Shown: one piece after another, positions 2,867 to 64,000 of the stretch | Layout: every line of letters starts with the position of its first letter | How positions within the stretch are numbered: the first letter of the stretch is position 1 | Assembly (NCBI GenBank): GCA_035236585.1 | Contig: CP141135.1 | Location: forward strand, 61,472,190-61,536,189 | Length of the DNA stretch: 64,000 nucleotides | Reading direction: 5' to 3' | Source of the DNA: Warburgia ugandensis | Lineage: Eukaryota; Streptophyta; Magnoliopsida; Canellales; Canellaceae | The notes under the pieces: generated by a model | Told to the model about the DNA's origin: nothing | The model's database searches: none | Seen by the model: only the letters and a program-made list of their open reading frames with translations | Made by a program: the position numbers and the translations under genes

Positions 2867-5857
2867 ATACCTGTGAAAACCCCAAAATTTTTGGAATTAA
2901 TTGGAAATTTTACAAAAATCGAGGTGAAATATTATATTTAATATAATATTAATTTTTAGAAAAAGAATTAGGTCTTGAAACATAGATATTTGGAATCATT
3001 CACTGAAAACCAGTCAAAATGATTGTAAGCATGCTAAAATTTGAGCTCGGGTGAAAAATCTCTATTTTTTGTAATTTTTGTGAATTTACATTTACCCATA
3101 GGGTTAAAGTGGTCATTTCACTTTTTGTGGGGTCCACAAAAGTTAGATAAGCTAGTGGACAACCATATCAGAAAATATCAATGATGAGGAATAAACATGA
3201 TGAAGAATATGCTTTTAATTTTATAAGAAAAGTGAAAAAAAATAATTAAAATAAGGCAAAAATAACCCCATAAATACCTCTCCCATAGAATGCACGAAAT
3301 CCCACATACTCCTAGACTCTCTCCCTCCCTTTCCCTTTCTCTTTCGCTCTCTTTTTCTTTTCTTTTCTCTTTTCTCTTTCCAGCAGTAGCAGCGGTCCCC
3401 ACATACACCCAACATAGGAACCAGCCTGTGCTGGGCTGGCGTGTCCCAGGACGTGCCTTCCACCTGATGCCTGCTACTAATAGGCCGACTAAGGTTTTTT
3501 CCCAGCTGGCCAAATCATCCCCAATCTCTCGCCTCCAGCATAAAAAAGACCCTAGGGAACCCGGAATTAGGTTCCTCTCACTCCCCTCTTCAAAACCCTT
3601 CTCTCATTCCTCCTCTTGGCACCAGCAAGCACCCCGGTAATAAGCAATTTACAAAAACCCTAACCGTCTGGCTAGGGCTTCATATTTTGACAAGGAAACC
3701 TCTTCTCAAGCTATCCTCTCTACTCCAAACCAGATTCAAGTAGGTCTCTGACATCTCCTCTTCAAAAACCCCATGTTTTTTTGCTAGATCACTGTTGAAT
3801 TAGGTTCATCAGCAACTGGATCACTGGTGAACCATAATCCGGTGACCTAGGTGGAAATCACCACCAAATCAATCAGCTTTGGGAATTTTGAACCTTTCGA
3901 TCAGTTCAAAGGGTCCCAAAACCCCAGGATCTGAAATCTGGGCCCTTAACATGGTTAGATCTAGGAAAGAGTTGATCTGACAATCCAGATCGAACTGTCT
4001 CAGCTATCCCAAGTTACCCCTCCCCGTACACTGGCTATCACCGGTGGAATGTGGCGTGGGTGGGCCGTTGATCAGTCCATCAATCTGTGAACCCAGAATG
4101 AATTTGGGCCCTTGTTTTGATATGAAATCTTGAAACTTAAATTCAAAGCTCATTTTAACTCCAAATCAAGATTGGAAAGAAGCTCTGGATTCCTTGTAAA
4201 GATTAAAGTCTAATGGAAACCTAAAATTTATGTTTTATTCACTGTAAAATTCTATAAATTACAAAAAGAAGTACTAATTTCTAAGATCAGTCAAATCTGA
4301 CATGATCAGACCTTGGATTTTTTATCCGTCAGTGATCTAGTAATGAGAGAACAATGAATCAAGAGTTAGATGTGACTAATCTAGGATGAATTAAGAAATT
4401 TAACCTTAACGGAAGAGAAATATTTAAAATGATCATGGATCTACTTGATCTAAGTAATCAAGCATGATCAAAAACTATAAAATAGTATGGATGATGATCT
4501 AGTAATTAGATAATGAGAAAAGAATGGCCTGATGTAACTAATTTGGGATAGATTGAAATCTATACCCTTGATTTGGATAAATTGACTTAAGATCTTCTTG
4601 ATCGTTTGGATCAAGAAAGATCAGATCATATGATGAGATGCATCAATGATCTAGTGATGATATCACATTGAGAGAATGTGATAGATCTAAATAAAAATGA
4701 AAGATCAAGATCTAAAACCTCAATGGGATGAAAAATGAATAGAAATCAAAATATGATCAATGGATCAAAATGAATAAATATGATGTATTCAAATGAGCAT
4801 GTGAATTATTATTGTAAATATTCTTTTATTTGTTTAGTAGATGTAATTGTTAAATTTGTTTATTTATGTTTTAATTGTTCATGTTATTAAATTAAATGAA
4901 AATTATAATTAAATAAAAATAGATATTGATGAACATTTACAATGAATATGGACATGGACTTAATAATAATTAGGGCTATAATTAGTAGGACAATATAAGG
5001 AATATCATTTCCTTGGCCCAAATTAGGAGAATAATAAACCCCATAAAAGACATTTTAAATGTTCATGAATTTAATTAAAATCAAATGGCAAGAGTACTTA
5101 GGGTTTAAGGCTAATAGGAACTTTATGAAAGTTGAGTTAAGGTCACCCTAGTAAATGCTGAACATGGTGGTTAAAGGGTTCTCTAATAAAGCCTCGCTCT
5201 TCCCCTACGTACTAACAACGTTTGTGAGGTCTAAATGCCTCCTTACATGAGGATTGAATTAACCACTCTATGAGAAGCTCTTAACTAGTAAGCCTTAGTC
5301 AATTCTGAAATAAGGAGCTGTCTAGAATTAGGAGTGCATAAATTATCTTCAATCAGTAAAACATTAACTAGTTGAATAATAATAAGATCATAAAAGGATA
5401 GTAAACCATCTAATCCAAATAAAAATGATAATTAAGATAATCAAAGATCAAACAAGATCCATGGGGAGATCTTGAATGATCAAGAATGATAAAAATCATA
5501 ATATTGTATGTATGTTTTGAAGTACTATAAATATTATATTCAAATGTTAATCAATATATTCGAACTTTGATCAATATGGTCCAAGGAACAACATCCAACT
5601 CATCCTATGTAAGGATGATCAAAAGAAAAATTAAAAAGTATAAATGAGTTGAGGAATGACTATATATATATATATATATGATTTGACAAATACATGAAGG
5701 ATATGATGATCAAGATCAATGAGAAGATGGATGGTTGAAAGTAAAGGTAGGAGGACCTTAAGAATATATTCAATATATACAATGCATGTATTTTACACAT
5801 GATCTTATCCTGATGAATGAGTTTTGATTATAATTGCCTTGGAATTGTTATGAATCA

Positions 5858-5982
5858 ACAAGTGATGTTGAAATGAATACAAAAGGATTGATTAAGTAAT
5901 TATGAAATTACTTAAGACAACAAATGATGTTGAAATGAATACGAAGGGATTGATAAAGTAATTTATGAAATTACTTGATCAA
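5858..5982. repeat. Two-copy 62-bp tandem repeat inside the LTR
   Basis: Two adjacent copies share GATGTTGAAATGAATAC and then AGTAATT-ATGAAATTACTT, starting at 5858 and 5920. They differ at only a few bases. Confidence 0.75.
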
Positions 5983-6358
5983 TCCCTATTATAACCAGAC
6001 ACACAGTCTATAAGTATGAATTAATATTTTTCATACAAGCATGAAAGCTAGTGGTTTTCTTTTAAGACAGGATGCATGGGGATACCAATGCTATGAGAGT
6101 TATGAGGGTTTGGCCACCCACTCTTTGAAACAAAATATGATGATGATATTGTACTCAAAGAGAGGCAAAACGTCGGGTGGGGCAATTATGGAAGGCCACC
6201 ACTGTGACAACCATGGTTCCCCCCATGCGAACATGGATATGTATTTTCCACCATGGTATTAGTGGAATATTATGCAATTATCCGAGCATGTTGTACGGAT
6301 TGATACTGTGAACATGGTAGTCCTTTGATATTTTGCATTATGATGTAATTGATTATGG

Positions 6359-6448
6359 TATGATGAGATGCTTTATGTTATGACATGATGAGATGCTTTA
6401 TGTTATGGCATGATAAGATGCCTTATTTTATGGCATAATGAGATGCCC
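6359..6448. repeat. Short tandem array, unit about 25-30 bp, inside the LTR
   Basis: Roughly four imperfect copies of a unit containing ATGATGAGATGCTTTATG lie head to tail here. Confidence 0.7.
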
Positions 6449-7184
6449 AGTAAAAGTTATTACTAATGTTCTATTTGAGGATGATTCCCAATACAGTATG
6501 ATTATGTATTAACACATAGTGTTAATATTGAAATCAGTTTAGAAATGAGATATTATTGATGATATTGACTATATTCACGATTTTCAATGGTTATATATAT
6601 GTAATATATAGATATAATTCATATGATGAGTGAAGGATAAAATGGTTATCCAATTGTATAAATTGATTTATATCATGGATATAATGAAATATTGATTTTG
6701 AGATATATTGAATATATTTCTTAAATCCCTTACCAAGCATAGCTTGTTGACATATTATAAATGTTTGAATGTTTATAACATCTCAAATATAGTTAAGAAA
6801 GATTGAAAGCTCAAGACTTTTGGATAATCATCACCGAATTACGACTCAGGGTATTTACTTTAAGGAAGACTGTATTAATTGTTTTGTAATTTGAATTGTA
6901 ATATTTGGACAATGTATGTAATGATTACCAAGGCTGTATATGTGAACCACTAGATCGATCCTAATTTTAATAAAAGTATTTCTATTGATATTTAATAGAA
7001 ATTTTATTTTATGCAAAAATCTATGTATGATAAGTAATTTGAGGTGGCACTTGGGTTTTTAACAAATCAATTTCAAAGAAAATATGTTTTTGCTATTTGT
7101 GTTTTAAAAATTTTCAAAATCAGGGCCCTACCTTTGCAAATATTTATGAAAATGTGTTTTAAAAACCCGGGTCGTCACAATACC

Positions 7185-7696: not shown

Positions 7697-7875
7697 AATC
7701 CTCATGCACACAGCAAGGCAAATTCAGCCAATGGTCTCTTGTGCACATAGCAATTCGAACCAACCAAATGTCTCTTCGCAACACATGCAAGTGGACTAAT
7801 AATGGTCTCTTATGAACACAGCAAGGTGCACTAGCTAAACATCCCTTTACAACACATGCAAGCAAACCAACCAAT
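7697..7875. repeat. Minisatellite of about 35-bp units, split by the CACTA insertion
   Basis: Units start near 7697, 7731, 7768, 7799 and 7838. They share a core like AATGGTCTCTTRTGCACACA followed by GCAAG and a CCAACCA or similar end. A further unit, beginning AATTGTCTCTTATATATAAAGCAAGG, resumes at 23995 immediately after the CACTA element. Joining the two flanks restores a continuous array. Confidence 0.75.
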
Positions 7876-7892
7876 CACTACTAAACAGGGAG

Positions 7893-8230
7893 CTTTTAAA
7901 GTCAGTTAAAAGTGATAATCAAAGTCACTTAATAAGCGACTTCTATGAAGCCAACTTGGAAAGTTAATAACTTTTAATGTCGTTTAGATAAACAACTTTA
8001 AAAATCAAGGACCTTTATAGTCACCTGAACAAACAACTTCAAAAGTCACAAACTTTTGAAGTCGTTTAATATAAGCAACTTCAAAAGTCCAACTTTTTTG
8101 AAGCACTTTTGAAGTCGCTTATATTAAATTACTTAAAAAGTCACAACTTTTGAAGCCTTTTAGCCCTAAACAACTTCAAGAGTCCAAACTTTTGAAGTTG
8201 TTTAGGGCTAAACAACTTCAAAAAGTATTT
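7893..8230. repeat. Left subterminal palindromic repeat array of the CACTA element
   Basis: About seven dyads of roughly 35 bp. Each has a left half like CTTTTGAAGTCGTTTAG, a few bases of loop, and the complementary right half like CTAAACAACTTCAAAAG. The clearest lie near 8053, 8105, 8149 and 8190. In known CACTA elements, subterminal repeats bind the element's own TNPA-type protein; that role is inferred here. Confidence 0.85.
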
Positions 8231-8254
8231 TTTTTTTCAATTTTCCATCTGAGC

Positions 8255-8610
8255 ACTACCACTTGTATCCAATTGAATAACAAACATCCTATATACACCC
8301 GATGCTTCAAAAAATCTTTAGAAATGTGCAAAACCCATTTCAATACAACATGCATCCACGCCTTTCTTCATACAATAGCACCTGTATACATTAGCTAACA
8401 AACTTCATATACACCTAATACTTCAATCTCTATAAACATGAAAAACCAACATCCACATCTTTCTTAATACACTACCACGTGTATAAATTGAATAACAAAC
8501 ATCCTATATACCTAATACTTCAAACAATCTTTATAAACATGAAGAAGCAACATCCAATATAACATTCATCTACATCTTTCTTGATACACCAAATCGTTCT
8601 TATAATATAA
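8255..8610. repeat. Imperfect tandem repeat, unit about 95-120 bp
   Basis: Three to four copies contain TACCACNTGTATA...AACAAACATCCTATATACACC...CTTCAA...CATCTTTCTT. The CAC-GTATA landmarks fall near 8261, 8380 and 8475, with a partial unit near 8605. It lies just inside the left palindromic array. Confidence 0.65.
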
Positions 8611-10879
8611 CACCTAATATATCCATGGGTACAAAACATCCAAACTCATCAGTGTACATATATATATATATATATATCTATATTAAAAATAGTTTACAAA
8701 AGAAACTACAACGCATGCATTCTCTATAACATTCACATTCACTTCATTTGTAAATCTATACACATTCGCATTTACTTTCACACTCTAAATAACCATCTCA
8801 TTCATCATCTCATAAAAGTTATATAATTCAATGAACATATTGAAAACTAACCGCCACATATTCATTTCATGTACAAGCTTCATATTCACTTCATATATAC
8901 TCATTTGTTCCCATAATCCAAGTTTCCACTCATTCATCACTTAAAAAATATATATTTCAAAGAAAATAATAAAAAATAAAGAATACACATAAGTGAATGA
9001 AAAAAATACTTTATTTTGTATTCCAGGTTCATGTAGTTACTCAAAGTGATCTAATTGATACTCATTATATACTCAGCCAATGTTGTTTGTATTTCATTGA
9101 GATTTACTCTGGAATAACTCTTCTTGTTTGCCCACTCAGAAAGCACAGCAGCTTAAAATATAACATATTTAATTAAGCTCACATTTTTTTTAGCTAGATC
9201 CATAAAAACTGTAGAAAAATATAATATAATGAAAAGTAAAAAGTGACCTACCTTTCTTAAATGGAAGACATGAATACTACAAATATGAGGGTCCTCATAT
9301 ATCTCAAGATATAGTACTCGCACTCCCAATCAAACTGTTGTTTAGGGCACTGTGTATCAAGGACAACAAAAAAGAACAATAAATATCATTTGTAATATTA
9401 TAGGTTTAATTAGTGGAAAATTAGAGTAATTAATTATTTCCTATACCTTGACATTCTTCAAAGTGAGTTTTGGTAGTTGCATAGCCTTAGTCATATTAGC
9501 CTATTCAAACCATACTCTATAAATTTAAATTTCAAATGCATTATAGATGAATAACAAATTACTTATCTACACATAACACATGAAAATTATAAAAGCTTGT
9601 TTATTAATAATTTCTATGAGGACAAGACGAATGTGCGATCCACAAGAATAAAAAAAGAAAGCATGCCCACCGTGCACATCTAAAATGAGTAGCATCCAAT
9701 GAGACCTACATAGATAGTTATATGAATTGTAATGAAAGTTGACAATCCTTAAGTATAGAATAAGTTGGCAAGAAAATTATGACTGGCCCACTATTGTAAG
9801 GAATCATTAATCCTTGTCCTTAAGAGCAATGAAAGAAGCTTGATAAAATATCATGCACATGCCTCTCTATCGACCATTGCATTACCACTCCTGAAATGAT
9901 GCCAGGGTCAAGGAATTGATTTTAAAAGTTTACCGTCACCATCAAAAAGGCTATTTGTATCATTTAAGAAGCTGCTGCATAAAAGATATAATTATTACCT
10001 ATAACATGTAAATGCTAAAAAATGTATAAGCAAGTATGTGCATATACCCCATATTGGAGATAATGTGAGGGTGCTCGAGTTGATCCTATAAGCAAACTGA
10101 TAATAGATCCTCTACCATAAGTGGCACTTCAATAACATCCTCGACAAGCACTTTCCTTGATTCGTTTGGGGTTGATTGATAAATCATTGTTGATGAGACC
10201 ATAGATTAACGTTAGGGATCGAGGCATGTTAGGTGGGACTTCCACACACTCCTTGGACGGTTGCTCTAAAAGATGTAAAAAAAATCAACTAAATAATATT
10301 AATCAATGAAGAGGACCTAATTTATGATGGGGAAAAAAAACAAAAAACAAAGATATATAGAAGTACATGTTCCATTGGTGCAGCAGTAATAGGTGAAGCA
10401 AAGGCGGCCGACCTCAGTGCCATATGTTATTGTTGATTAACTGTATAAAGTTATTAAACAATTAATTTGAGGTCTCTAGCTAAAAAAATTTGATGAGGAA
10501 GGTAGTATAATAAGATACATATCATGAACTTTATCGGAATGACTAATGCCTCCATCCAAGCAATGTGATATGCAACTATTTGCCCAATGGTTATAATATT
10601 TTCCATTTCTATTCAAAATGGTAGGCAGGCATTAGCATTCAAAGCCATGGAAATGGACACTTGCTTAGTATGTGATGGCATACTAATTTCGTGCAAAACA
10701 CTTGATTCATGCTCATAGCATGAACCAACTACCACGATGTTTTAATGGAAATCAAGGGCTAACAGGCATTGACCTACCTACAAATCAAATGTACAATGGA
10801 GAAGTTGAGATAGAGAATTATTACAGAAAGACAATAAAATTTTTTAGTTTTGTCTATGTGTGTGTGTGTACCTCCTGGG
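8611..10879. other. CACTA internal sequence without recognised gene
   Basis: AT-rich sequence between the left repeats and the second transposon gene, including a (TA)n tract near 8660. I recognise no protein motif on either strand. It may hold 3' exons or the 3' untranslated region of the minus-strand second gene. Confidence 0.4.
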
Positions 10880-12209
10880 CAAGAATTTCCTTTCAGAGGG
10901 CTCTGAATGTCCTTCATGATCTTCTTCAGCTGCGAAATTGTAGCTCACATTTGGAGGTATAGGCCATTGCGAGAATTATGTGCAGGGGATGGAGTAACAA
11001 TCATCAAACCTCCCGCACGCAACTAACTAAATATATCAGTCTTTATTTTCTCAACGAGCTCATTTTAGGCCTCCTCATCATCTTGAACTATAAGTAAATG
11101 TCCTATACCAAAGAATTTAGAAAGAATAACATTGAGACCCATACCCCTAACTTGACTAGGATGGTCCTTATTGCTCATAGCCCTATACAAGATGTTCTCA
11201 TTGGAGGCAGTGCTACTTAGAGTTCCTGTAGTTGTTCTTTCTTAGGTAAGAATATCCTGCAAAATTTAATTAGAAAGACATGATCATGTCATCTATTTAA
11301 TTGTATAAAATGTATTGACAAGTGGAACCACTTACTATACGAGAAGCAATTTGTGTAGTGCTTTCATCTGAGAACTTGTTACCAGTGCGGCCCACTGAAT
11401 GCGTCATCTTCTAGAGGATGGAGCGATCAATGGGTTCAGCAGTCTCAGCTTTCTTTTGTTGTCAAGCAAAGACACTATAGTTAGACAAATACATTTATAT
11501 CCCTATAGTAGCATTAAATTGCAAGGGATAAATTGTCATAAATGCTTACTTTGCACTCTTCTAAACGAGCATAGCTCAACCTAGATAGGTGGTGATGCAT
11601 ATTTGTTTGATGCACCTTCCTTCCCCTTTCACTCTTCGCCTTCTCATTTGTACATGCATGATCAATTGCAATAATTGAATGTTACATGTAATTAATTAAA
11701 TGAAACATTGTTTCTGCACATACCTCAAATTTGGCAAAAGTGTGATTTTGTACAAATGCATTCCAAACCTCCTTGTCAATGAAGTCAGAGTAAATGGATG
11801 GAACCATGTACAACCTTGATGGATCTTTGACATATGAAGCTATGTAATTACTAACAAGGTAGTTTTTCCATTTTCCCCATTGCTCACCAGCCCCTTGTAA
11901 AGTAGACATCTTCTTGCCATTAGGCACATTAAAGACAATCTGCAAAGTACATAGCAAATTACTATATTTGAAAAATAAGATAAGTTATAAATTATATAAT
12001 ACATGTACTTAATATTTACATGCCTTCACCATTTACCAAATAGAATCTTTTATCGAGGATGGCACAAGTCTCCAATCCTCAAATGCGATAGGAACATGCT
12101 TCTTATTGTAGAGTAGAGAAAACTACAATAAGCAGCTGCACTCTTACCAATCTCTTGCCCTCTGTTGTTATATTGGATAGTTTCATTAATTCCCCTAAAC
12201 TTTCTCTTG

Positions 12210-12855
12210 ATAACTGTTGAGTCCTTAATTTTTCCAAAAATAACCTTAGATTACTATTTTATTAGATAATTTAATAAGGTAATTTTGTGGTTTTAAATCA
12301 ATTTTAGCTTTAATCAATCATCCAACCATTAATTTGAAAAGTTAACGATCGGATGATCATTATAGCTAATTGTTCACATAAGTTAATTCTAATTTTATAT
12401 TTTTGCTTTGTAGATAATTCAAGATACGTTGGATGGTTCAGATCAGCTTAGTTTGATGGATCCCACACCAAAAATCTAGGCAAATCTGACAAATGATGGC
12501 AAAATTTGGCAAATCTAGGCAATGATGGCAAAGTTGACCAATGGCAAATCCTCTTATAAAGGAAACATGGGTTAAAATGAGGAGACTCTTTTTTTCCCTC
12601 CCCTTCTTCTTCTTCTTCTTCTTCTTCTTTCTTCTTGCCTCTTCCCATTTTCTCATTTTTTTCATTTTTTTTCTCTCCTCCTTTTCATAGAGTAGAGGTG
12701 GAAGGATTGTTCCTCTCCACCTCTCAGTCACATTTTTTTTTTGTTCGATTAGAGCAAGCAGTTTCCCTTTTCCTCTTCCCACCTTCTTCTTCTTCCTTTG
12801 GTTGTTTTTTCTCGTTTTTTCTTTGGACGGAAGAGGGTTGGGAGGACTATTCCTC

Positions 12856-12946
<91 letters not shown>

Positions 12947-13061
12947 GGTTCACTGCACCTTCCCGTTTCTAGCCTCCCTTCTCCTCCTCTGCCCCAAGCA
13001 GCTCTTCTCTTCACCCACCTAGGCTGGAACCATAGAAGCAGATTGGCTAGGGCGCACACCG

Positions 13062-13099
<38 letters not shown>

Positions 13100-14150
13100 T
13101 ATCTCATCCTCTCTCCGGCCAGCCGACCCAGCCAGGGCTACCCTACGGCTTCACTACCACCCATCTCTCCACCTTGTTCACACCCTCGCCAGATCTCCCT
13201 TTTCCGGCAAGACCCATCTCCTTCACACCGTTCCCATCTTCTCTCACTTTATCACTAACCTTGGCTACACAATTTTTGCCCCAGTCACCCTTGTTCACCA
13301 ATCTCTACCAGTCGTTGATCTAGCACTACCCCAGGCCAAGCCGCACCCATCTCTCTCTCTCTCTCTCTTGCTCCCTCATTCACTCTCTCACCAGATTTCT
13401 CGTTCTCCGGCAAACCCATTTCCCATTGTCCCGCTCTCTGGCAAATTCCCTTTCCACTTTTCTGCTCTCCCCTACTCACCGTTTGATTCAGGAGAGAAAA
13501 CCCAACTCGGGTTTTCTCCCAACCCATCTTCTCCTGCGTTCCCACTTCTCTCTTCCCTCTTCTTCCTCCTTCTTTCCCCTCTTCTTCCTCCTCCTTTTTC
13601 TTTTTCTTTTCTTCTTCCCGTTTGATTTCCTCATTATTGTTCACGAACAGTACCGGGTACTATTCACGACACAGTACCCCCGTCTTGATTTTCTCAAAAG
13701 TTTTCTAGTTTTTTCGTTTAAAAACCAAAACCCCAAAAATTACAGTTATGCCCCTTGCAGATCTCTGAAATTCCAACTGTGTCCCCTATTTAATACCATT
13801 TGTGTCCTCATTTTAATTCCATTTGGGTCCCTAGTTTAATTCCATTTATATCCCTAACTAATATGGTTTTTACTTTATCTTTATTATGCCTATTCAAGGA
13901 CAGTGTTGTCCAGGACTGTTATTTAGCTTCATTTTCTGTTTTTCTTTTAGAATAAATAAGTCTATACATTCCAGCAATTAAATAAAGTTGAATTTTCTTT
14001 TATTGTTAGTTTATTTATGTTATTTTTATTTTTATTAATTAAAATTTGTGTAAACTCCACATTTAAGTCGAGTCCCCAAGGAAATCGACCCGGACTTGTA
14101 CTAGCTAGACTACAACAGCCGTGCACTTGCAGAAAACTCTCAACAATAAC
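12210..14150. mobile_element. Solo LTR of 1.93 kb with TSD ATAAC, inside a CACTA exon
   Basis: The unit 12215-14145 begins TGTTGAG and ends CTCAACA, perfect 7-bp inverted ends, and is flanked by ATAAC at 12210-12214 and 14146-14150. A TATA-like CTTATAAAGG near 12553 precedes a long pyrimidine-rich leader with CT microsatellites. The 3' end contains a GTCGA...CTTG...ACTACAACAG...GTGCACTTGC block typical of some gypsy LTR ends, and a related block occurs near 56360. No internal coding region is present. The long Ser-Leu or Arg-Glu frames here are translations of the CT repeat. Confidence 0.88.
12857..12944. repeat. (CT)n microsatellite
   Basis: About 88 bp of almost pure CT/TC dinucleotide inside the solo LTR. 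A second run of about 33 bp follows at 13063-13095 and a short one near 13350. Confidence 0.95.
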
Positions 14151-14245
14151 CTTTTTCATTGTTTTCGTCCTTTGCCATTTCTCTTTGGTGTAGTGCTCAT
14201 GTTGGCCTCTTGTTTGTGCTCTTTATCATGGCTGTATTTTTTAGT

Positions 14246-17200
14246 TTGATGTTCTTCTCGTTCCATCATTACTATAAAGAAGAACACATTGATATTAGAA
14301 CAATGACATAAAAATAGGCCATGTAAATTCATTTAAAGAAAATAAATCAACATGACATATGCGGCAATGAACCAAAAGCAAATCAAATAAAACATGGAAG
14401 AAAATAGGAACTTTCTAAAGTATAAAAAATTTTAAAATTAAAATTTCCTAAAACTAAACCTAGAAACTAATTTGCATAATTCTAAGTAAAGCAATGTTAA
14501 CTCGCATGATTCTAAGTAAATCAGGATATAAATAAAGCAATGTTAACTTGTATGATTCTAGCCATCACATAGCACATGTATATGTACATTTATTTGCACT
14601 CATATAAACATGACTAAAACAATTTAGCTTTATGTAAGCAACTACTACTGTTCGACAATCAAGAGATACATCTTAAACTATTTACTAGAAGGCTTGCATG
14701 TATGTCTTGTTGCGTCTTATTTGTGCCCATTTCTAAAAACGAATTGTAAATCATTCTTATCAAATTGATCAAGCATGTACTATGACGACCCATTGATTAG
14801 TTATGAGAAACACACATGTATTTGCTTCAATTTTTAATCCCTTTTAGTCCATCTATATTCTTAAGAATTTAGTTACCACTTGTCCTTAAGCACATACACA
14901 CACCCATCTTTTGTTTTTAAACATGTTTAGCTGAGATAGCATTTAAAAATCTTGAGTGTCATGTTTCTTTTCTAAATATCAATATTTTCAGAGAAATGAG
15001 GGCAACATTTCTACTGAAAATTTGGAAGAATCTTCATCCATTCATATAAACGTACAATATCTGACATATGTGGAAAATAAACCACAAGCAAATCAAATAA
15101 AGGATCCAAGATCATATAAGTCTGCTTAGTATAGATATTTGTAAGAGTAAGGGCTACAAATCCCATGGACCTTTCACTAGTCTTTAACTCGACTACTTCG
15201 AGTTCACTTCTCTTAGTGGGAAAGATGCATCCTACACTAAGTCTGTAACATAGCTTGCTAATGGTCATTCATAAGATTTCTAGAGGGTTGAACTTTTTCA
15301 TTCTAAACGACTATATGTATTTGGTTGATAGTAAGCTTCCAAAGTTTACTTGTGCCACAAAATATTGTAGAAACAGACTCCTATAGAACTAAAGAAATGT
15401 GATAACCAAAGAATTAATAAAACTGTAGTAATAAAAGAACTTTAAGCAAAATAAGATGATTAAATTATAAGGTGGGAAGTGTGTGTGTGTGTGCGCGCGC
15501 GCGCGTGTGCTTGTAAGTTTCTTTCTTCCTCTCTGTCTAATGATAAAACATAACCAACATGTAGTTCTTACAAATACTTGGAAAACTTTATAAGAACAAG
15601 AGAGTTATTGCTCAAATACAAAGAAGTTTGGAAGAAGAAGAATGCTCTCTCTCCAAAATAAAGCTCAAGTGTAAAGATTAGACAAAATGAAGTTAAGCTT
15701 AGTGTTTCTTCTTAGTTCCTTGTTTTGCTACCTTTGTTTGATTGTTTGTTTAATCTTTGATTCCATACTTTAGTTTCCTAGAGTTATTGTCTTGCTTTCT
15801 TTGATTCTTACCTCTTATTTTGTTCCTCAGAACCTTGAATCTAAAGGCTACAACTCTCTTGTAGTGATAACCAAGAGATCATAGTTCTTAGATTAAGTAC
15901 ATTGCCATCTTTCTCCTTAAATTTTCCTATCCATTTCATGCTTTCTTTTCTCATTTTTTTCCCCTTTCTTTTTCATATGCAACTTCGTTTTTTATATGCA
16001 TGTTCATTCCTGCTTGATATTTGGATGATTGAAGGTAGATTAGAAGTTGATTTTGGGGATTGTAATTAGTTCTAAGTAGGGTGCGCGCACCCCTTGGAGA
16101 GTGTGCATTACCCTTGTACCTTTATTCCTTCAATCAATGAAAAGTTTATGCTTCAATAATGAATTGCTCATAGTTATGGTTCTTTTGTTTGTTTTTAATT
16201 TACTTATTCATGGATATCAGTTGTTCCTTTTGAGCTCAATTACTTATGTTTCATCCTAGGTTAGTTACAATTGAATCTCATACAAATTAAACACTTGAAC
16301 CATATGCACAAACCCATGGTTCATGTGAACAGTTTTGAAGTGTTTCTCCTTAAAATTTTAGTTTGTTTTGGTTAGTTGTCCATGCATTCTATTCATATAT
16401 TATATCTAGGTTAATTTGCAACTTATTCCATGCTTTTAGATCTCATAATCATGTGCACCATGCTTTCCATTCTTGCCTCTAATTAATTGATTATCAATGT
16501 AATGAATCATTCACATTCCACACAATTAGTAAGGAATAATCTAGCACGATCATATAAACCAAATTATATATACCTTCAAATACTCATTTTTTACTTTTTG
16601 TCTTCTCTATCTTCATTCTATGCCTCAATATGGGTCTAATTGTAAAGCTTTCTATCATCCATTTTGTGTGGTATGTTATGAAGGATTATTCCATACAATT
16701 ATCAAGGAATAATCCAACATAATTGCATAACATGATTATATAAGCCTTGCCAGTTGTGGCCTTTATTTTGAATGTTTTTCATAAAGTATATGTATTGTTT
16801 TTAGCTTAGAGATGGATATCCTTCTACCAAATAAAGTTCTCCTTAAGGGGGTCAAAAATAGATTTAGTGGTTTAAGATTATATATGGTGAACTTTTACTA
16901 GTTTAATGTGGTAGAAAACATATCTTAATAGGTATATACATCAACATCATACTTGATAGTATTTTTCTTCTCCTTTGGTCCCTGTAGTTATACCATTTAT
17001 CATAATAAAACCTACTAGGAGAGCCTCTTCAATGTCCTCTTTAGCTAGTCCCTAAGTATATATATCTTTAAATCTTTAGGTACAAAATAGAGACAGTCCT
17101 TAAGTATACTAACAACAATCAAAGCTAAGGATATCAGAGACAAAACATGGCCTACTGGTAGAATGCATCTCATAGTAAAATAATCACGTCTCATCTACTC

Positions 17201-18344
17201 AAATCATGTTCATATATCCAAACGAAATCAGAAACATTCCAATCATAGTCATCCATGCACAAATCCATCAAAACCATGAACTAGATTCAGAAGATCAACC
17301 TGGAAAAGCTTTCTTTTTCTTTTTCTCCTCTTTCTTCTCCCCCTTCTTTTGTCAAATAGGGTTTTAGCACCAACATGGCTCTGGGCGTCATCAGCGGTGG
17401 CCTGGTCAGCCCTCTTTCTCCTCCTCTCTTCCTCTCCTTCTTCTCTTTCTTCTTCTTTTTCCTCTTTTTCTTCTCCTCTTTCTTATCCCCCTTCTTCCCA
17501 CCATCGGTTTTTTCTCACCTAAGTGCTAGTCTAGGCGTTGTCAAAGTCAAACATCATCGACAGCCTGAATTGTCCTCTTCTTCTATTCCTCTTTTTCTTC
17601 TTCTCTTTCTTGTCCCCTTTCTTCTCACTACTAGTTTTCCTTAGTGTGCACGTAGGTCTAGGCATCATCAATCAGCGTCAAATGGGTGTTATCAGCATCA
17701 AATGGGCACCATAAGTGACAATCCTCTCTTCTCTGTCCTTTCTTCTCTCTGACCAGCTCTGCTAGGTTTTTTCCTTTCCTGTCGGGCTTTTGAGAATAGA
17801 CTTGGTCTCTGTTCTTTTCGTTGACTAAGACTTTAGTGGGAGGGGGTGCCATTATTAAAATGACCCCCTCCTTTAGTTTATTAATAAATTTAACTTTTGA
17901 GAATTTTACTGTTAAAATTATATTGCCTTTACTACTTAATTATTTATTTATACAATTATAGCAAAAATATATATGAGAGCTACTCAATTCTGAAATTTTT
18001 GCAAGTGGGGCATATTATGTGAAATTACCAAATTGTCCTTTTTAAGAAAATCAAAAAGTATTTGTCCAAATTTCAATTTTAGCAAACTTAATATCATTGG
18101 AATTGTTTTTTTTGTTTTTAGTACAATCCAATATTGAGTTATTAACATTAGATTTGATGTCTATAAAAGTTTCTCTTTCTAGAACTTTAAAAATTGAGAA
18201 TTTCAAACTTATTCTCTTTTGACTCCGATTCCATATAGTTCAAAAATTTTGTACATTGCTATTTAAAAATCAAAGATGTTACATAATAATTAGCATAAAT
18301 TTGGTTGATCATTCTTGGTGTTAAATTTAATTGTACATAATGAA
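14246..18344. other. CACTA internal region without recognised gene
   Basis: No coding motif recognised. It contains a diverged short direct repeat (around 14350 and 15060, sharing AAGCAAATCAAATAAA), a GT/GC microsatellite near 15480-15506, and a perfect 14-bp palindrome GGGTGCGCGCACCC at 16079-16092. There is also a weak duplication about 173 bp apart (near 16518 and 16692, sharing AAGGAATAATC) and pyrimidine-rich tracts at 17300-17640. It may hold introns of the two transposon genes or older insertions. Confidence 0.45.
17300..17645. repeat. Pyrimidine-rich tract with internal duplication
   Basis: CTT/TTC-rich sequence in two similar blocks (17395-17520 and 17575-17645), each ending in an ACTAGT/CATCGG-TTTTCC-like stretch followed by GTCTAGGC. 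Frames across it are low-complexity Phe/Ser/Leu and not credible proteins. Confidence 0.5.
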
Positions 18345-18500
18345 GTCATTTAGTGTAAACAACTTTAATAGAGTCGTTTAATGATAAACGACTTTAAAAG
18401 TATATATTACTAAAGTCTTTGCTTTTAAAGTCATTTAGTACTAAACAACTTTAAAAGTAATAGACTTTGGAAGTCATTTACGCTAAATGACTTTATAAAT
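18345..18500. repeat. Internal cluster of CACTA palindromic repeats, 3' of the transposase
   Basis: Four dyads of the same family as the terminal arrays, for example AGTCGTTTAATGATAAACGAC and GTCATTTAGTACTAAAC. They lie just beyond the 3' end of the minus-strand TNP2 gene. Confidence 0.8.
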
Positions 18501-18713
18501 TATTTTTAATTCAAATTATATATATTATGTTGGTACTTTACAATATCTAACAATTAATACACAATGAAACCTATTTTTTATAATAGTCAACATTGGATTC
18601 ATGCATTCTTTATACACATATAGCTCATGACAAAAGAGCTAATTATATATATGGAAATATATATATATATATATATATATTACAACTCACTAATACAATC
18701 CACATACCCCCAT

Positions 18714-21700
18714 CTAAACATAGTTTTCAAACATAAGCACCCCCTCACCATTGTCATGCACATAATCCTCATTCTCACCTAGGACTACTTCGATTGATGT
18801 GATTGTTTTGGTACTAGAAGTGTAATCTATTTCAATATCTCCTAAGTCATCTTCATCATAAAAATCCCTTGAATAGAATGATAAAACAGTTGACCATGAC
18901 TTATCACGTTCGTCTTGCACATAAAACACTTTTTGCTTAAGATGCAAAATAAATTGATTGTTTTTATAGCTGATCCTGTTGAGGTCAACCAATGTCAATC
19001 GAAGGGCATCAATTTTGATGCTGTCTTTGTTGTGTTCCACCTAATAGCACTTAAACACAACCACAATTCTAAAAATATAATCCAATGCCCATATCTCTCT
19101 TATAACCCCGTAATAAATATCATCTACCACTATTGGTTTGTTATCCGTTGAATTGGAAAAGAATATAACATTGGCAACTAAGCTAACTCCACCATTCTGT
19201 TGCACTATTGAGTTATCACAGTTTTTTGTGTAAAAGAAATAACCATTGATGGCATATCCGGCATATTTTATTACTTCTAGTTGGAGTCCCATTGCCATCT
19301 AGCCCAAGGTTTTAGATAAACCGTTTCCTACTACTTCTCATTGATCTTGAATCTGTGTATACACATATTAAGAAGGATATGAGATTATTGCCATTAAGTA
19401 AGATTGTGCACGCACACACGCACACACATAATGTATAGTTTATTAATATTAAGGGAGAATTCTTTCATTTACCTTCTTATGGAGCCAAGTATTGAAAGTG
19501 CACCAATGTTCAAATTGTAGCCACTTCTGTTTCTTTACGTAACTTGGATTCTTTGCCTTGAGTAAATTCATGTGTTGATTACACACACACACACACACAC
19601 ACAAATTAATGGAGTGATCAAAGAAAATATAACCATCAATAATTAAATTTTACCTAAGTGCATGATTAACTTACTCAATGTATGTTTGGAGTTCATCAAT
19701 ATTTAACAAAACATAAAGATGAACATGGCCTCGCTCTTTATAGTCAACAGTGGATACACAACCACTCGATAGAGGTTCGACAACCTTGGAATCATGAAAT
19801 GCAATTGATTATTTCTTTCTTGGGATTCCAATCACATCCACTCTTGAAAAGTATATGCGAAACTCTATTGCTTCCTTTGCAATATAACATTCGACTATAC
19901 ATCCCTCTAGTCAGTTGTGATTACGTACATACCCTTTTAAAATTTTCATGTACCTATCAAACAGGTATATTCATCGTAAGTAAACTAGCCCACAAAGTTT
20001 GACCTCATCAATGATGTGTATTGTTAAGTGTACCATGATGTTAAAAAATGATGATAAGAAGTTTGTCTCAAGCTCACATAAATTTGTCACTATATAACCT
20101 TAAATTTCTTGTAATTTTGAAACATCAACCACCTTCTAGCACAAAGCATTAAAGAAGTAGAATAATTTTATAATAGCTCCCATAACTTTGTCTGATAACA
20201 CCAAAGGTATTGCTACCGGTAGGAGTTGTTGCATCAATGCATGGCAATCATAGAACTTCATCGCCAACAATTTCATCTCTTCCATAGAGACAATGATTTT
20301 AAAGTTTGAAGAGTAGCCACCTAGGACTTTGAGCTTGGACAAAATTTTACACATTATTCTCCTCTCTTCTCTACTGAGGGTATAATTTGCCTTAGGCACG
20401 TATGTACCTCAACGGCCCTTATTCTCTAGATGCAACCTCCCCTTCAAGCCCATCTTTGTAAGACCCATTCAAGCTACAAGTCCATCCTTTATTTTTCTTA
20501 GGATATTAAGTAAGTTACTGATCAAGCTTTGACACGCGATCTTCTCAATGTGCATGACATTAAGCACATACCATAGATGCAGTGATTTTCAGTATGTCAG
20601 CCGAAAGAATAGTGATTTTTTCTTCCAATAACTTCTACAATTACTCTCACCTATATCTTTACGTGATTTCTTCTTTCTCCATAAGATATTAATATCTTCA
20701 ACCTATTCCAATACTTGTCATCTTGTCAACATATGAGGAGGTGTCTTTGTTTCTACACTACTGTTAAATTCTCCACTCTTAAAATGATATGGATGGTCTC
20801 TGTGCAACCATCTCCTCTGCCCAAGGAATGTCATTTTCCTGCCTTGTTTAAGTCGTACAGCACATGTTTGATCATTATGGATAGGACAAGCATTTTATCC
20901 CTTCAAGTTGCATCCAAACAAATTATCATATGCAAGGAAGTCGCTTATTGTCCACAATAGTATAGCCTTTAGGCTGAACGACTCTTTCTTGTATGTGTCA
21001 TATGTTTCAACACCTACGTCCCATAATATCTCAAGATCATTGATCAAGGGAGATAAGTACACGCCCATGTCATTTCCTAGTTGCTTTGGAATCAATATCA
21101 ACATAGTTAACATCAAGAACTTCTTCATGCACAAAAATGGTGGGAGATTGTAACAAACTAATATAATGAGCCAACAACTATACTTGTTGCTCATATAACC
21201 ATAAGGATTAATCCCATCTGCAGATAATACAAGTTGTAGGTTTCTAGGTTCTTCATCAAAATTAGGCCACATGAAGTCTACAAGCTTCCATACTGGGCTA
21301 TTTGTTGCATGGCGTGAAAAGCTATTAAATACTCTATCTTTGGCATGCATACTAGTTTCTTTGCTATTTTTGTTATACAGAACATTCTTTTGAACCTTAG
21401 AATAGGGAAAAGTACCATAGAACCTTTACAGGAACATATATAATTGTCTCAGTTGAATTCTTCTTTAACTTCCATCTTAACTGTCCACAAAGTGGGGCAT
21501 ATAGTTTTATCCTTATGCTCCTTCCTATACAAGGTGCAATTATTGCTGCACACATGTATCTTCTCATACTTCAACTCTAGTACAGTTAGGATTTTCTTTG
21601 CCTCCCATGTAGAACTCACCAATTTATTATGCTTTGGTAGCATCTTACCCACTACTTTTAAGACTTCTATAAAACCGTGATTTGAAAAACCAAATCTTGA

Positions 21701-22150
21701 TTTCACGTTGTAAAGTTCTACTATTGCAAACAGCTTGATATAATCTTTACACTCAGGGTACAACGGTTCATCGGCTTCCTCTAATGTAGCATGAAATTTT
21801 TCAAGGTCATACTAAAAGTCATCATATGCATTTCAAAACATTGGTATAGTTGTACTATCTCCAAAACTTCCTACAATGTCTTGATCATATCTTCCAAGCC
21901 TTGTCAAGAGCCTATGCTGAAGTTCTTCTCCATGCCAAATCCATGAGTGATAGCTTTCATCGATTCTATTTAAGCACAAGTGTTCTCTCAACACCCCTAC
22001 AATTACTTTTTTCAAGTTTACACATTTTGAGCATGGACAACACATGCGATTACGGTCAACACATGCCCTAAGTACGAACTCTATGAAATTTTTTGTTCCC
22101 TCCTCATATTCTTTTGATGTTCTTGTCGCAGTCATCCAAGCATATTTATC
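18714..22150 (-). pseudogene. CACTA TNP2-type transposase, decayed
   Basis: Reading the minus strand from about 22150 leftwards: a transposase-associated N-terminal domain (WMTATRTSKEYEEGTKNFIE, then CPCSKC and a HSWIWHGE motif; 22150-21830); the TNP2 catalytic region (LYPECKDYIKL, TWEAKKILTVLEL, CSNNCTLYRKEH, then LVLSADGINPYGYMSNKYS and FLAYDNLFG; 21765-20895); a DUF4218-like part (NVMHIEKIACQSL, YTLSREERRIMCKILSKLKV, YDCHALMQQLLPVAIP, IMVHLTIHIIDEVKLCGLVY; 20590-19880); and a DUF4216-like C-terminus (YAINGYFFYTKN, DDIYYGVIREIWALDY, FYVQDERDKSWSTV; 19298-18714). Domain order is that of intact CACTA transposases. Stops and frameshifts break it in several places, some of which may be introns. 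It would catalyse cut-and-paste transposition if intact. Confidence 0.88.
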
Positions 22151-22609
22151 TATTATCACAAGAAATTGAAGCAAATCTATGTGAAGACTTGTTAGACATG
22201 AAAAGATTAGGTTAGGTATTTTACCAAACACTAGGTATACAAGAATTACAAGTACTTGAAATAACAACATTTCAAGTAATTTTTCAATTAATAATGAAAA
22301 AAAGCAAAATACGATAGACACATTCAAAAACAAAATTAACTTTAAAAAGAAAATTTTCTAACCCATAACCTTGTAAAAATTCTTCAAATTTGCATAGTAC
22401 ACATGAGACAAATAAAGAGATACTAACCATCACTCAAAAATCAATATCGACCACAAATTTATGAATGTTGTTCCAATTCATAGCTAGGATTTTGTTGAGG
22501 ATAAACAAATAGAAATTTGACGTAGTTTTTGAGTATAGATCATGAACAAAGTAAAAAAAAGTATGACAGAAGCTACTAAATAATTCTGAAGACAGACTCC
22601 TAAATTGAA

Positions 22610-22680
22610 GTTGTTTATTGTAAATGACTTTAAAAGTCCACATTTTTAAAGTCATTTGCAGCAAACGACGTTAAAATTTT
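22610..22680. repeat. Internal CACTA palindromic repeats upstream of TNP2
   Basis: Two dyads (GAAGTTGTTTATTGTAAATGACTT and AAAGTCATTTGCAGCAAACGAC) about 460 bp upstream of the transposase N-terminus on its coding strand. Position suggests a promoter-proximal regulatory role; this is inference. Confidence 0.65.
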
Positions 22681-23419
22681 CACTTTAAATATATATTTAT
22701 TTGATTTTTGTAAATTACAATATCTCACATAAATACACAATAAAATCGATTTTACAAACAAAAAAAATATAATATATATACATGAACAAATAGGTGAACA
22801 AAGAAATCAAATTATTTTTTATTACATCCAATGTTACACATATCAAATGTTATATATTATTAGATCTTATTAATACAAGATCAAAGAGCAAATATGCTCT
22901 TTTTCATTAAAATCTAACTCCTAGTATTCATGTGACACAATTCTATGGAGGGAGAGTGTCCTACAATTTTTTCGGCCAAAAGTTGATGGTATTACCACCA
23001 CTCTTCATGAAACCCTAATTTTGGATGAGAACCACAAGTTATAATGTTCTCCCTTTCTCCAATAGTAAGGGTTAAAGACATAAGCAGTTGTTATTTGTAA
23101 TGAAATTATACAATTTTTGCAAAATTTGAGTGATCTAACACACTTCTTAACCCCATCATCTGTAATGAGAAAACCCACATGATCTACAAAATGAAAACAG
23201 AAATAGTTAGTAATAAGAAAGCAATTTATGTTCAAAAGAAGTTATGGTTTACTTATAGTTTTTTCATGGCACAAATAGTCAAAATATTTAAAATGGAAAG
23301 CAAGAAGAGAAAAAAAAGAGAAACATAAGGACTAGAGGAGGAAGCTATCATGCCACCTGTGAGAAGAAGATGATACAAAAAAAAATGATATGTGGTCGAC
23401 TATTTATAAATAAACAAGT
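22681..23419. other. CACTA 5' flank of TNP2, no gene recognised
   Basis: AT-rich sequence between TNP2 and the right subterminal array. Short minus-strand frames show no known motif. It may be the transposase promoter and leader. Confidence 0.4.
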
Positions 23420-23994
23420 ACTTTAGAAGTTGTTTAGTACTGAACAACTTTAAAAAACAATACCTTTTGAAGTTGTTTAGTAGTAAACAATTTCAAAAGC
23501 ATAAGCGGGAATAGACTTTTAAAGTCATCTGACTCAAACGACTTCAAAGGTCATTGATAGTTGAAGTCATTTAGAGTCAAATGACTTTAAAGTCCATTCC
23601 CAAGTAAAAATAATCTTTGCACAAAATTTATTGGTATACTTTTGAAGTCACTTAGTCTAAACGATTTCAAAAGTTGACTTCAAAAGTTATTGACTTTTAA
23701 AATCGCTTAACTTAAACAACTTCAAAGTTATTGACTTTTAAAGTAGTTTAGTTCTAAACAACTTCAAAAGTCAATAACTTTTGAAGTCATTTAGAACTAA
23801 ACAAATTTAAAAGTCCTTCCCACAAAAAATTTCCACTTCACACCAAACTTTAAAGTCATTTACAACTAAACAACTTCTTAAGTCTATATTTTTAAAGTCA
23901 GTTATTTCTAACTGACTTGTAAAATATTTACGAAGTCGGTAGTCAATATAATGACTTCTTTATGCCAACTTTAAAAGCCTCATGTGTAGTAGTG
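23420..23994. repeat. Right subterminal palindromic repeat array of the CACTA element
   Basis: About ten dyads of roughly 35 bp, with half-sites CTTTTGAAGTCATTTAG and CTAAACAACTTCAAAAG, near 23427, 23462, 23517, 23559, 23640, 23694, 23734, 23779, 23850 and 23895. They end at the terminal TAGTAGTG. Confidence 0.88.
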
Positions 23995-24699
23995 AATTGT
24001 CTCTTATATATAAAGCAAGGTGGACCACCTAATGGGTACCTACAACCAAAAGATCAAAATCATATATTTCAAATCAATATCAGATAATTTGCATACTTTA
24101 TACAAAATTATGTATCTCAAGTATTCATTTCAAATTATTGAAATCACGTATATACAAATCACATTTTTCTCATGTCTTACTAGTAAGGTAAACATTTGAA
24201 TATCTTATAACAGAATGATTCACCATTCTATCAAAATCAGTATATGTATTATCAATTTAAAACCATATATCAAGCTTGCCCCATATAAGAATGTATGTTT
24301 TCAAAATATAAGAAACATACAGTAAATCATGGATCTACGTGAAAATTATATACACGCAAATAACATGGATGAAAAAATACCAACATAGAATGCACGACAA
24401 TCAAATAATTTGTATTATTCAATTATTTAAAACTAAGAAATTTTTAATAAAGTTGATGAATGTGAAAAATCCATATGACAAATAGATGTTAAAACTACCT
24501 ATCTCCTATGACGCTATTTAAGTTTTAGTTGTATCTTCCTTCAACTAGGATCTTAAATCACCTTTATAATTTTTGTAGGGGCCCACATATTGTGTGTGTG
24601 TGTGTGTGTGTCCTATTATTAGTTCTAATTCTTGTGTTTACGTTGGATACTAATGAGTTTTACTTGATAATCAGCATATAGAACAGATCTTGTATAAGT

Positions 24700-30639: not shown

Positions 30640-33000
30640 TTCTATTTTTCCTTTTCTGAATGGTAAAATAATATTTAAGGAACAAAAGTTACATGATTGA
30701 CCAAAAGGTCAATAGCTAAAAGCAATTAGGCAAAGAGAAGAAACAAAAAAAGACAGAACAATCACTAATTAAGGCCAAGACAAAGGATTGTGATCACTCA
30801 TCATCATCTGGGATATAATCATCAAAGAACATAGTTAGATAGATGACTCCCATTTTAGCCAGACGGTCAGCCTTGTTGTTGGCCAATCTATTCATGAGAG
30901 AGAATTCCATGTTATGATCTATAAGGCAAGCATGAGTATGTGTGATTAAGTTGTGGAATCTCCACGAGTAAGAGTGTCCTCCTTTAATCCAACAAATAAT
31001 ATTAAAAGAATCATCTTCAATTATAATTGGCGAATTTGGTATCTAGTTGAATTTCTTGACCTCAGAAACATCTGATTGTAATATGACATCACTGGAATCG
31101 ATGCATGCTCTGATGACCTATCACTCGTGGTTTCTAAACACTCACCTGGTTTCTAAACATTCGCCTAATGCCAGCAAGCCCTGTATTTCCAAGAGAACTT
31201 CCATCAGAGTTGTTTTTAGTTCTGCCTCGTCTTGGAGGCCTTAATCAATGCCCTGCGAGAAAAGATATTTAGGTGGATTTTCCAATTCCTTTCGATGTCA
31301 TCCGCTGAAATGCCGTTGGGATTCTGCTTGTCAGCAATCCAAGAGGCCGCATGATGGAAAGAGCTATGCCACACTTGTGTTGGGTCATTAGTCTTGCTCT
31401 CAGAGGTTCTTCGATTTCTTTCACCCCACACCAATGCATCGCAAAGAAAATAGAATATCACGTCATTTTGCCTCTAGCAAAAAACTTGAGAATGCACCGG
31501 CATGAGCCAAGAAACATTGAAAAGGTATAAGAATTTCCACCATAGGTTGGCAATAAACCTTTTGGGTAGTGATGTAATATATTGTTTCTTCATGTTTAAG
31601 ACAAAGTATGCAATGTTAATGATCACCCATCCACGTTTCCTAAGGTTATCAAGTGTTAGGATGGCTCCACGGACTGCTGTCCTTGCAAAGGAAACAATAC
31701 GCGGGGGAGCAATGGAAGACCATAACCTGTTGGAGTTGAAGTTGCCATGAGGAGCATTAACGATTGTCATGCGCCGATATGACTTAACAGTAATTAACCA
31801 ATAGGTTCCAAAGTTCAAATCCCAGTGTCCTCTTTATCCGGGTTCCTGTAGGAATCATCATGAGATTCTTCCAAAGAACATCACCTTCGATACAAAGTCT
31901 CCAAAGCCAGTTTTGGAGCAATGCTCAATTGAAGACTCTCAAGTTGTAGATCCCGTATGCTTAGGCAAGCAACACCTCTCCCACCTAACAAGGTGATAAG
32001 AATGGCGGTCCTTTTTTCCATCCCAAAGGAAGTCCTTTTTCTTTCTTCTCCAAGATACTAACGATGGACACGAGGCACTTGTATAGTGAGAAAAGTAAAT
32101 CGGCAAACTTTGAGTTCACGGGTTTAATAAGAATCTTCTGGACAAGCATAGATATGTCCTCTTCCACCCGGTTAATCTTTTGTCCACTCAAGACATAATG
32201 TCATCAACGACTAATCAGGCTGTTTTCCCACAATGATTGGTAGATCAAGGTGCTTAAAATGGCATCTTGTTAATGTTGCACCCAAGATAAGCAATAAGGG
32301 ACACAATTGAATCATCCCACCATATAATGCTAAAAATGCAGTCCCGGTGCACGAAGCTCCAGCGTATGCGGGGTTTTGGAAAGGGACAGACTACAAGGGT
32401 CAATAGTACATAGTCTTACCTTGCATTTTACAAGAGACTGTTTCCACTCCTTAAACCGGGAACCTCAAGGTTACATGACGACAACTCTACCGCTGCACCC
32501 AAGACGACCATGTAATGCTGATGAGAGAAAATCTATGGCTAACCCTCTGCCTAGTAGATACTTCATAGCAACGGGTCGTGGCTTTCAAAAACCATATTGA
32601 TTCTTTTTCCACCTTACAAAACATGATCACATCGTCAGCATATTGGAGGTGAGATACGAAAGGACCATCATGACACACCCGAATGCCCGAGAAGAGAGAC
32701 ATGTCTTTAGCTTTGTCAAGCATAAGGTTCAGTCATTCAGGGAGGATGGAGAACAGAAATCCCGATAGCGGAAGAGTTAAAAACTCATTTCGTTGTTCTT
32801 TGCAATTGGTTAGTTTAAATTATTAGGCAGTAATCAAGTATATCTTCCATCCTCAGGGCAAAGTCAAAAATAGCCACCCAGAAGCCTAGGGGTACTAGGA
32901 GAGACACCCTCCCCCTCTTGTAGTCATGTCTCTGATCATAATATGACCTACTAAAAGGCACAATTGGAGCACCATTTGTTGGGATCCAATTATTCATCTT
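30640..33000 (-). mobile_element. L1-type LINE, 5'-truncated and decayed
   Basis: Minus-strand fragments in the correct LINE order. Reverse transcriptase pieces (LALRMEDILDYCLI-like near 32830, then HLQYADDVIMFCKVEKES at 32720-32600) come first. A post-RT region follows (IAYLGCNINKMPFKHLDLPI near 32280, RLTGWKRTYL, KKDFLWDGKKDRHSYHLVRW near 32000). Next are a zinc-binding RT domain (SIAPPRIVSFARTAVRGAIL, LDNLRKRGW; 31740-31620) and an RNase H domain ending MNRLANNKADRLAKMG...DYIPDDE and a stop near 30800. A T-rich tract near 30640, A-rich on the coding strand, marks the 3' end. Multiple stops and a SINE at 32343 make it dead. Confidence 0.85.
32343..32505 (-). mobile_element. Au-type SINE inserted in the LINE reverse transcriptase
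   Basis: Minus-orientation Au SINE: CCCGGTGCACGAAGCTCC at one end, then CTTGCATTTTACAAGAGACTG, a GGGAACCTCAAGGTTACATG B-box region and CCGCTGCACCC. LINE reading resumes on both sides (CYEVSTRQRV before, IAYLGC after). Flanks share TAATGCT, a possible worn target duplication. Confidence 0.87.
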
Positions 33001-36787: not shown

Positions 36788-37081
36788 TTATGTGGTCAGA
36801 ACATCAGGGAGCGTAGTATGAGCTCCAAGAACTTTACCACCCACATCAGGGAAGCATTCATGTCCAGGCAATGCTCCCACTCTCCCATCTCTGTTCACCT
36901 GAATCGGGTATTTTACCAGGTGCCCCTTCATTTCCTTCATGTCATCTGACACATATGACTTCCAATTATCTTCTGCTAGCTCATTTACACGCCTAACACA
37001 CTTGAGTGATTGGGGTTCCCGAAAAGAATCCTCCAAGGTACCCAGATGCTCAGCCCAAAGTGACATTCTGTATCCAAATAC
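36788..37081 (-). CDS. PLDDELTA: PLD last exon, C-terminus and stop
   Basis: 97 codons plus [26 protein letters not shown] near mid exon, [20 protein letters not shown], then [20 protein letters not shown] and LTT. The acceptor is GGCTGTAG. The C-terminal end has a broken duplicate 141 bp downstream. Confidence 0.93.
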   Translation of the reverse strand, partial: VFGYRMSLWAEHLGTLEDSFREPQSLKCVRRVNELAEDNWKSYVSDDMKEMKGHLVKYPIQVNRDGRVGALPGHECFPDVGGKVLGAHTTLPDVLTT

Positions 37082-57333: not shown

Positions 57334-57828
57334 CTGGATGGATACATGCAGAGGAGCATCAGGACAGAAATACTTCTAATACAAAAAAAGTGATCTAATG
57401 AGCATGATTCTGTAAGTAAATTTTAATTTTTATGGACAAACCTCAGTACTGATGGATCTCCTTTTTACTACATGGTAAAGTATCATGGAGGAAAAACAGT
57501 TTATGCTAAAACAGAGTAATAGCCTCATCCTATTGCACTCTAATGTTAGGTATCTTTTATAAAGAAATCAAAAAATAATGCAGACAAACAAGATAGTTCT
57601 GTGGCTCCCTATTGGGTTAAGAAGACTCTATATCCAAGACGAGCATGGAAGAGTGAATATCAAACACAATGTGATTTTTCTTTTATGGTGCAAGTGAAAA
57701 TTACAAAGGGAAACCACTTGCATAGTCTTCAAGATCTGTCCATCCACTAATGTGGAGGGCGCCAACCTCAATAGGAGATGCACCTCTTTTCACCAAGCCA
57801 CTGGGTTACTAGGCTTTTTGGCAACAAT

Positions 57829-62777: not shown

Positions 62778-64000
<1,223 letters not shown>

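Follow-up and report, generated by a model that had tools for sequence, protein, structure and literature searches.

An old, broken CACTA transposon with exact ends and a probable LTR remnant inside it in Warburgia ugandensis

Does a 16.1 kb stretch of Warburgia ugandensis DNA that opens and closes like a CACTA transposon hold a complete element, fit to stand as the reference copy of its family? The question arises from a window of 64,000 nucleotides (GCA_035236585.1, CP141135.1:61,472,190-61,536,189, forward strand), which corresponds to C10:61472190-61536189 within a 1.12 Gb assembly of 14 contigs. Overall, we conclude that positions 7876-23994 of this window are an ordinary plant CACTA (En/Spm) DNA transposon with exact ends, and that the copy is old and broken, with a probable LTR remnant inside. 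The whole explanation, to which we give a probability of about 0.95, is that of one CACTA insertion, with its terminal inverted repeats (TIRs), target-site duplication, subterminal arrays and tnp2, followed later by segmental duplication and a nested insertion, the genes now being dead.

The borders are drawn by four features.

7873-7875, no strand: left target-site duplication AAT, read from the sequence; duplicate copies A and C, described below, have AAT at their two ends as well
7876-7905, plus strand: left TIR, beginning CACTACTA, 24 of 30 positions matching the right TIR
23965-23994, minus strand: right TIR, ending TAGTAGTG, 24 of 30 positions matching the left TIR
23995-23997, no strand: right target-site duplication AAT, read from the sequence

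An initial annotation had placed the ends at 7876 and 23994, counted 24 identical positions of 30 in the TIRs and named AAT as the target duplication, and all of this was recovered on recomputation. The window offers 3,450 CACTA/TAGTG pairings (69 CACTA and 50 TAGTG words), among which the 7876/23994 pair has the top score; the runner-up reaches 20/30 with no duplication, and the best other pairing that does have a 3-bp duplication reaches 18/30. From the AAT onward, the right flank takes up a tandem unit seen in the left flank, agreeing with it at 30 of 38 positions with a score of 44 (at most 32 in 500 shuffles), and the element thus interrupted a short tandem array. This continuity of the target array supports the right border without need of another copy.

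Other copies in the genome lead to the same two positions. The left terminal 300 bp returned 1,953 first-look candidates and the right terminal 300 bp returned 2,923; 40 places were scored for each end and all 40 matched in both cases, the best match beginning at the first base in 39 of the 40 on the left (the window copy counted) and in 33 of the 40 on the right. Junctions were inspected at 20 small stretches, comprising nine independent left ends, ten independent right ends and the right end of duplicate copy C. At every independent junction, 9/9 left and 10/10 right, unrelated sequence lies outside, with 11-22 of 60 bases identical, and a CACTA-like end opens the inside; at one right place, L042, the second base is altered and the junction was read two bases off. 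In longer stretches from contigs C7 and C2 the alignment begins at 7876, and on contig C3 the two ends of an independent copy stand 20.9 kb apart, each flanked by ATG. A pair of ends on contig C5, 13.1 kb apart with TGA on either side, encloses a copy that is without 17375-21409, i.e. most of the tnp2 region. On contig C1, where the ends only were read, a pair 14.2 kb apart is flanked by CCT and CAT, which is no clean duplication, and these unlike triplets count against our explanation. The genome search that the initial annotation had proposed, with the terminal 300 bp, thus bears out its borders: independent copies lose similarity at 7876 and 23994, not at other positions, and because they break at the same two ends both the CACTA identity and the exact boundaries are supported. 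For a CACTA family that is apparently abundant in this genome, exact borders are now fixed, which is useful for annotation. At L021 (C7:30576154-30586153), about 1.4 kb separates two ends that belong to this CACTA family, a right one (TAGTAGTG, position 571) and a left one (position 2001).

The repeats just inside the ends were scored with the motif AACTTTTGAAGTCGTTTA, allowing up to 5 mismatches, on both strands.

7876-8250, no strand: left subterminal array, 12 motif matches in 375 bp vs at most 1 in 200 single-base shuffles
23400-23994, no strand: right subterminal array, 18 motif matches in 595 bp vs at most 5 in 200 single-base shuffles
18320-18520, no strand: array of the same motif in the interior of the element, 7 matches, density equal to that of the ends

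Counts so far above the shuffles confirm the subterminal repeat arrays that had been claimed for this element, and in the flanks the density is 0.20-0.25 per kb. Four further matches lie at 22250-22680, and the remaining 14.5 kb of the element hold one. Four marks of the CACTA superfamily are found together here: CACTA-type TIRs, a 3-bp duplication, a tnp2-type gene, and subterminal arrays in direct and inverted orientation. Neither the size nor the exactness of the borders is unusual, since exactly bordered CACTA elements as large as 13 and 20.5 kb have been published, according to the parts of the reports available to us (PMC8978399, PMC2613891, PMC8195511, PMC4219821, PMC4938662).

The window copy does not stand alone on its contig. 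Four other C10 copies, at 60.77 (copy A), 61.07, 61.11 and 61.32 Mb (together A to D), lie within 0.71 Mb and have the left flank in common with it (K2P 0.074-0.090), and copy A has the right flank in common too, at K2P 0.073 up to 27915 and at 0.048 where the likeness resumes from 28.8 kb. The fetched 30 kb of B, C and D stops short of the right flank; among these three the right end was read in C, where the outside is shared with the window at 56 of 60 bases. Because flanks and AAT are shared, we take the five C10 loci to be segmental duplicates of one insertion, and these alignments mark C10:60.77-61.50 Mb as segmentally duplicated, holding at least five related loci. Separate local transpositions would also have placed five copies within 0.71 Mb, local movement being frequent among DNA transposons, but such events do not account for a left flank held by all four other copies, a right flank held by A as well, or the identical AAT at both ends of A and C, and we give this alternative next to no weight. 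A recent independent move of the window copy was likewise rejected, on the common left flank and on the same AAT. Copies B and C are near-identical (K2P 0.008), and the other C10 loci are older. Plant substitution rates are 7e-9 to 1.3e-8 per site per year, by which a K2P of 0.075 would date the duplications to roughly 3 to 5 million years ago, a figure that serves as a guide only. Between the same loci, the divergence of the element (0.084-0.137) is mostly above that of the flanks, which we attribute to transposon DNA decaying more quickly.

Several other features were seen in the surroundings of the element. The left flank holds an insertion of 4,308 bp at 2872-7179, whose ends read TGTGA...TCACA and around which ATACC is duplicated (2867-2871 and 7180-7184). 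This insertion is missing from duplicate loci A-D and has the look of an LTR with no internal pair; similar pieces sit inside copies B, C and D, close to their right ends. Minus-strand exons of a phospholipase D gene lie at 36788-37995 (PLDc at 37636-37995, 4.4e-9; PLD_C at 36791-37081, 1.7e-33). A weak zf-RVT match at 31477-31833 (3e-5, below the cut-off) is probably the remnant of a non-LTR retrotransposon. A 398-bp unit stands in tandem at 57821-58607 (2.0 copies, 98%), and a perfect CT microsatellite of 87.5 repeats at 63192-63366.

Whether the element is complete turns on its genes, which lie on the minus strand and run, from the right, through Transpos_assoc, tnp2 and DUF4216 to a second gene.

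21836-22357, minus strand: gene 1, Transpos_assoc (PF13963) frame, Pfam E 9.4e-19
20721-21425, minus strand: gene 1, tnp2 (PF02992) in two frames with a stop at 20895-20897 between them, Pfam 4.3e-52 and 1.3e-12
18717-19298, minus strand: gene 1, DUF4216 (PF13952), Pfam match, with an in-frame stop at 19041-19043
14151-14332, minus strand: piece of gene 2 on the upstream side of the nested insertion, without a Pfam match
11685-12214, minus strand: pieces of gene 2 on the downstream side of the nested insertion, unmatched in Pfam at E up to 10

The two tnp2 matches agree with the TNP2 gene on one strand that had been described, and DUF4216 passes from 1.1e-5, below the cut-off, to 2.7e-8, above it, once its stop is read through as X. 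The transposase-24-like gene described beside it found no such backing: the gene 2 pieces of the window and of copies A, C and F match no Pfam family at E up to 10. The pieces at 11685-12214 nonetheless resemble what we take to be Transposase_24 proteins, and the fragments on the two sides of the nested insertion would originally have been continuous, to judge from the copies without it. DUF4218 and Transposase_24 are often present in CACTA elements; DUF4218 gave no match in the frame at 20139-20408, picked by eye as its place, and the missing matches to both families count against our explanation.

Copies A to D carry both stops of gene 1 as well, the first of them next to a one-base gap in A and D, and at these two positions F, an independent copy, has sense codons. 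The damage to gene 1 thus predates the duplications and is not common to F. Could the element even so be a complete, potentially autonomous 16.1 kb CACTA, usable as a family reference? Its ends, duplication and arrays show no damage, and the domains Transpos_assoc, tnp2 and DUF4216 can be made out, but the unbroken transposase gene of an autonomous CACTA is not what we find, the two stops standing where copy F has sense codons; no minus-strand frame of gene 1 is longer than 176 aa, gene 2 is split by an insertion missing from all six comparable copies, and we regard autonomy as very improbable. Both genes being disrupted, the description of the element as structurally complete does not hold. 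Since its genes carry stops and a split, the window copy of this broken CACTA is very probably unable to encode its own transposition, and its ends might be putatively movable in trans. No unbroken member of the family was found among the five fetched copies examined, in which the frames are short too.

The split in gene 2 is due to a second, later arrival.

12215-14145, plus strand (inferred): nested insertion of 1,931 bp with ends TGTTGAG...CTCAACA, and ATAAC at 12210-12214 and 14146-14150

Alignment skips from about 12214 to 14146 in 6/6 comparable copies (A, B, C, D, F and G; E is unaligned there), each of the six has a single ATAAC, and among the seven copies compared over that stretch the insertion is in the window copy only. 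Because A-D are without it, it is later than the duplications. From its anatomy, with TG...CA ends and a 5-bp duplication, we read it as a probable solo LTR. Among the fetched copies compared, a 169-bp, 76% match to its last part came from L023 on contig C7, where it falls at the end of a CT-rich stretch; what follows that stretch resembles, we presume, an Athila-type primer-binding site, and a gag-like frame, recognized by eye, lies 1.7 kb beyond it. Gene-fragment capture by CACTA elements has been published, in the available parts of two reports (PMC8978399, PMC8195511), and a captured fragment, rather than the LTR of a nested retrotransposon, would fit the higher G+C here (0.41 for 12001-14000). 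We hold this to be improbable, however, given the ATAAC duplication and the TGTTGAG...CTCAACA ends, two longest plus-strand frames with no Pfam match above the cut-off (best DUF2070, E 0.65), and the likeness of its end to that of the CT-rich stretch before the gag-like frame in L023. The C+T-rich region at 12.4-13.9 kb was considered as a gene of the element and rejected; it falls within the nested insertion.

The preferred reading, a solo LTR inside a CACTA element, bears directly on how this copy may be used. The 16.1 kb are not the single unit that had been described, and less the nested insertion and one ATAAC the element measures about 14.2 kb. Nor can we endorse the window copy as a reference for its family, as the initial annotation had suggested, with its nested insertion, its disrupted genes and its place in a set of five segmental duplicates. 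Perfectly paired ends are not the same as a clean reference, and the window copy would carry a foreign LTR into the family consensus.

The internal array raises a question of its own, as it lies in a block that resembles one upstream of gene 1.

22605-22878, no strand: block upstream of gene 1, resembling 18425-18698 in the same orientation (66%, E 7e-23)

The region at 18.2-18.76 kb is kept in duplicate copies B, C and D (88-89%) and in the independent copy F (75.5%). Outside the arrays, the two blocks of the window score 41 vs at most 31 in 1000 shuffles; the same test in copy F found no likeness (19 vs shuffles up to 28), the internal block found no match at the left end of the element (16 vs shuffles up to 26), and these two results weigh against the idea of a duplicated block. 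We take the region of the internal array to have arisen by an old duplication, within the element, of end or promoter sequence. A decayed terminus at 18.3 kb was rejected, with no CACTA-like end across five aligned copies. It is rather unlikely that the family's third array, between both genes, is a duplicated promoter or control region through which the element's own putative repeat-binding protein controls both genes, and a control role for the internal array is speculation.

Regardless of the role of that array, a general history of the locus can be proposed. A CACTA (En/Spm) cut-and-paste transposon inserted into a short tandem array in a plant chromosome, duplicating AAT. If the En/Spm paradigm applies, its tnp2 transposase would cut at the CACTA ends, and a second element-encoded protein would bind the subterminal arrays during transposition. 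The locus, with the element in it, was then multiplied by segmental duplication, and of the seven copies compared there the window copy alone subsequently gained the 1.93 kb nested insertion of solo-LTR anatomy. The family itself has dispersed, leaving the same ends at unrelated sites.

Such an element has close counterparts among known CACTA transposons. Maize En/Spm, outlined also in the background of one report (PMC2613891), likewise combines CACTA ends, a tnpD-like (tnp2) transposase and subterminal arrays of a type bound by TNPA. It has TNPA, whereas gene 2 of the window element is without a Pfam match and the search yielded no TNPA-like protein. Jozin of Chenopodium, in the accessible portion of its description (PMC8978399), is likewise a CACTA element with Transpos_assoc (TAD), tnp2 (Transposase_21) and DUF4216 in one gene; the Jozin genes described there also have DUF4218, and some have Transposase_24 and Peptidase_C48, none of which was detected in the window element, and unlike Jozin the window copy is broken. 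The soybean elements Tgmt* (20.5 kb) and TgmR* (13 kb) were compared through those sections of their reports that we could consult (PMC2613891, PMC4219821). Tgmt* is described there as putatively autonomous and expressed, in contrast to the window copy with its stops, split second gene and nested insertion. At the same time, both are large CACTA elements with 3-bp duplications and a tnp2 gene, like the one described here, and the arrangement of their subterminal repeats, asymmetric and in direct and inverted orientation, is also that of the window element.
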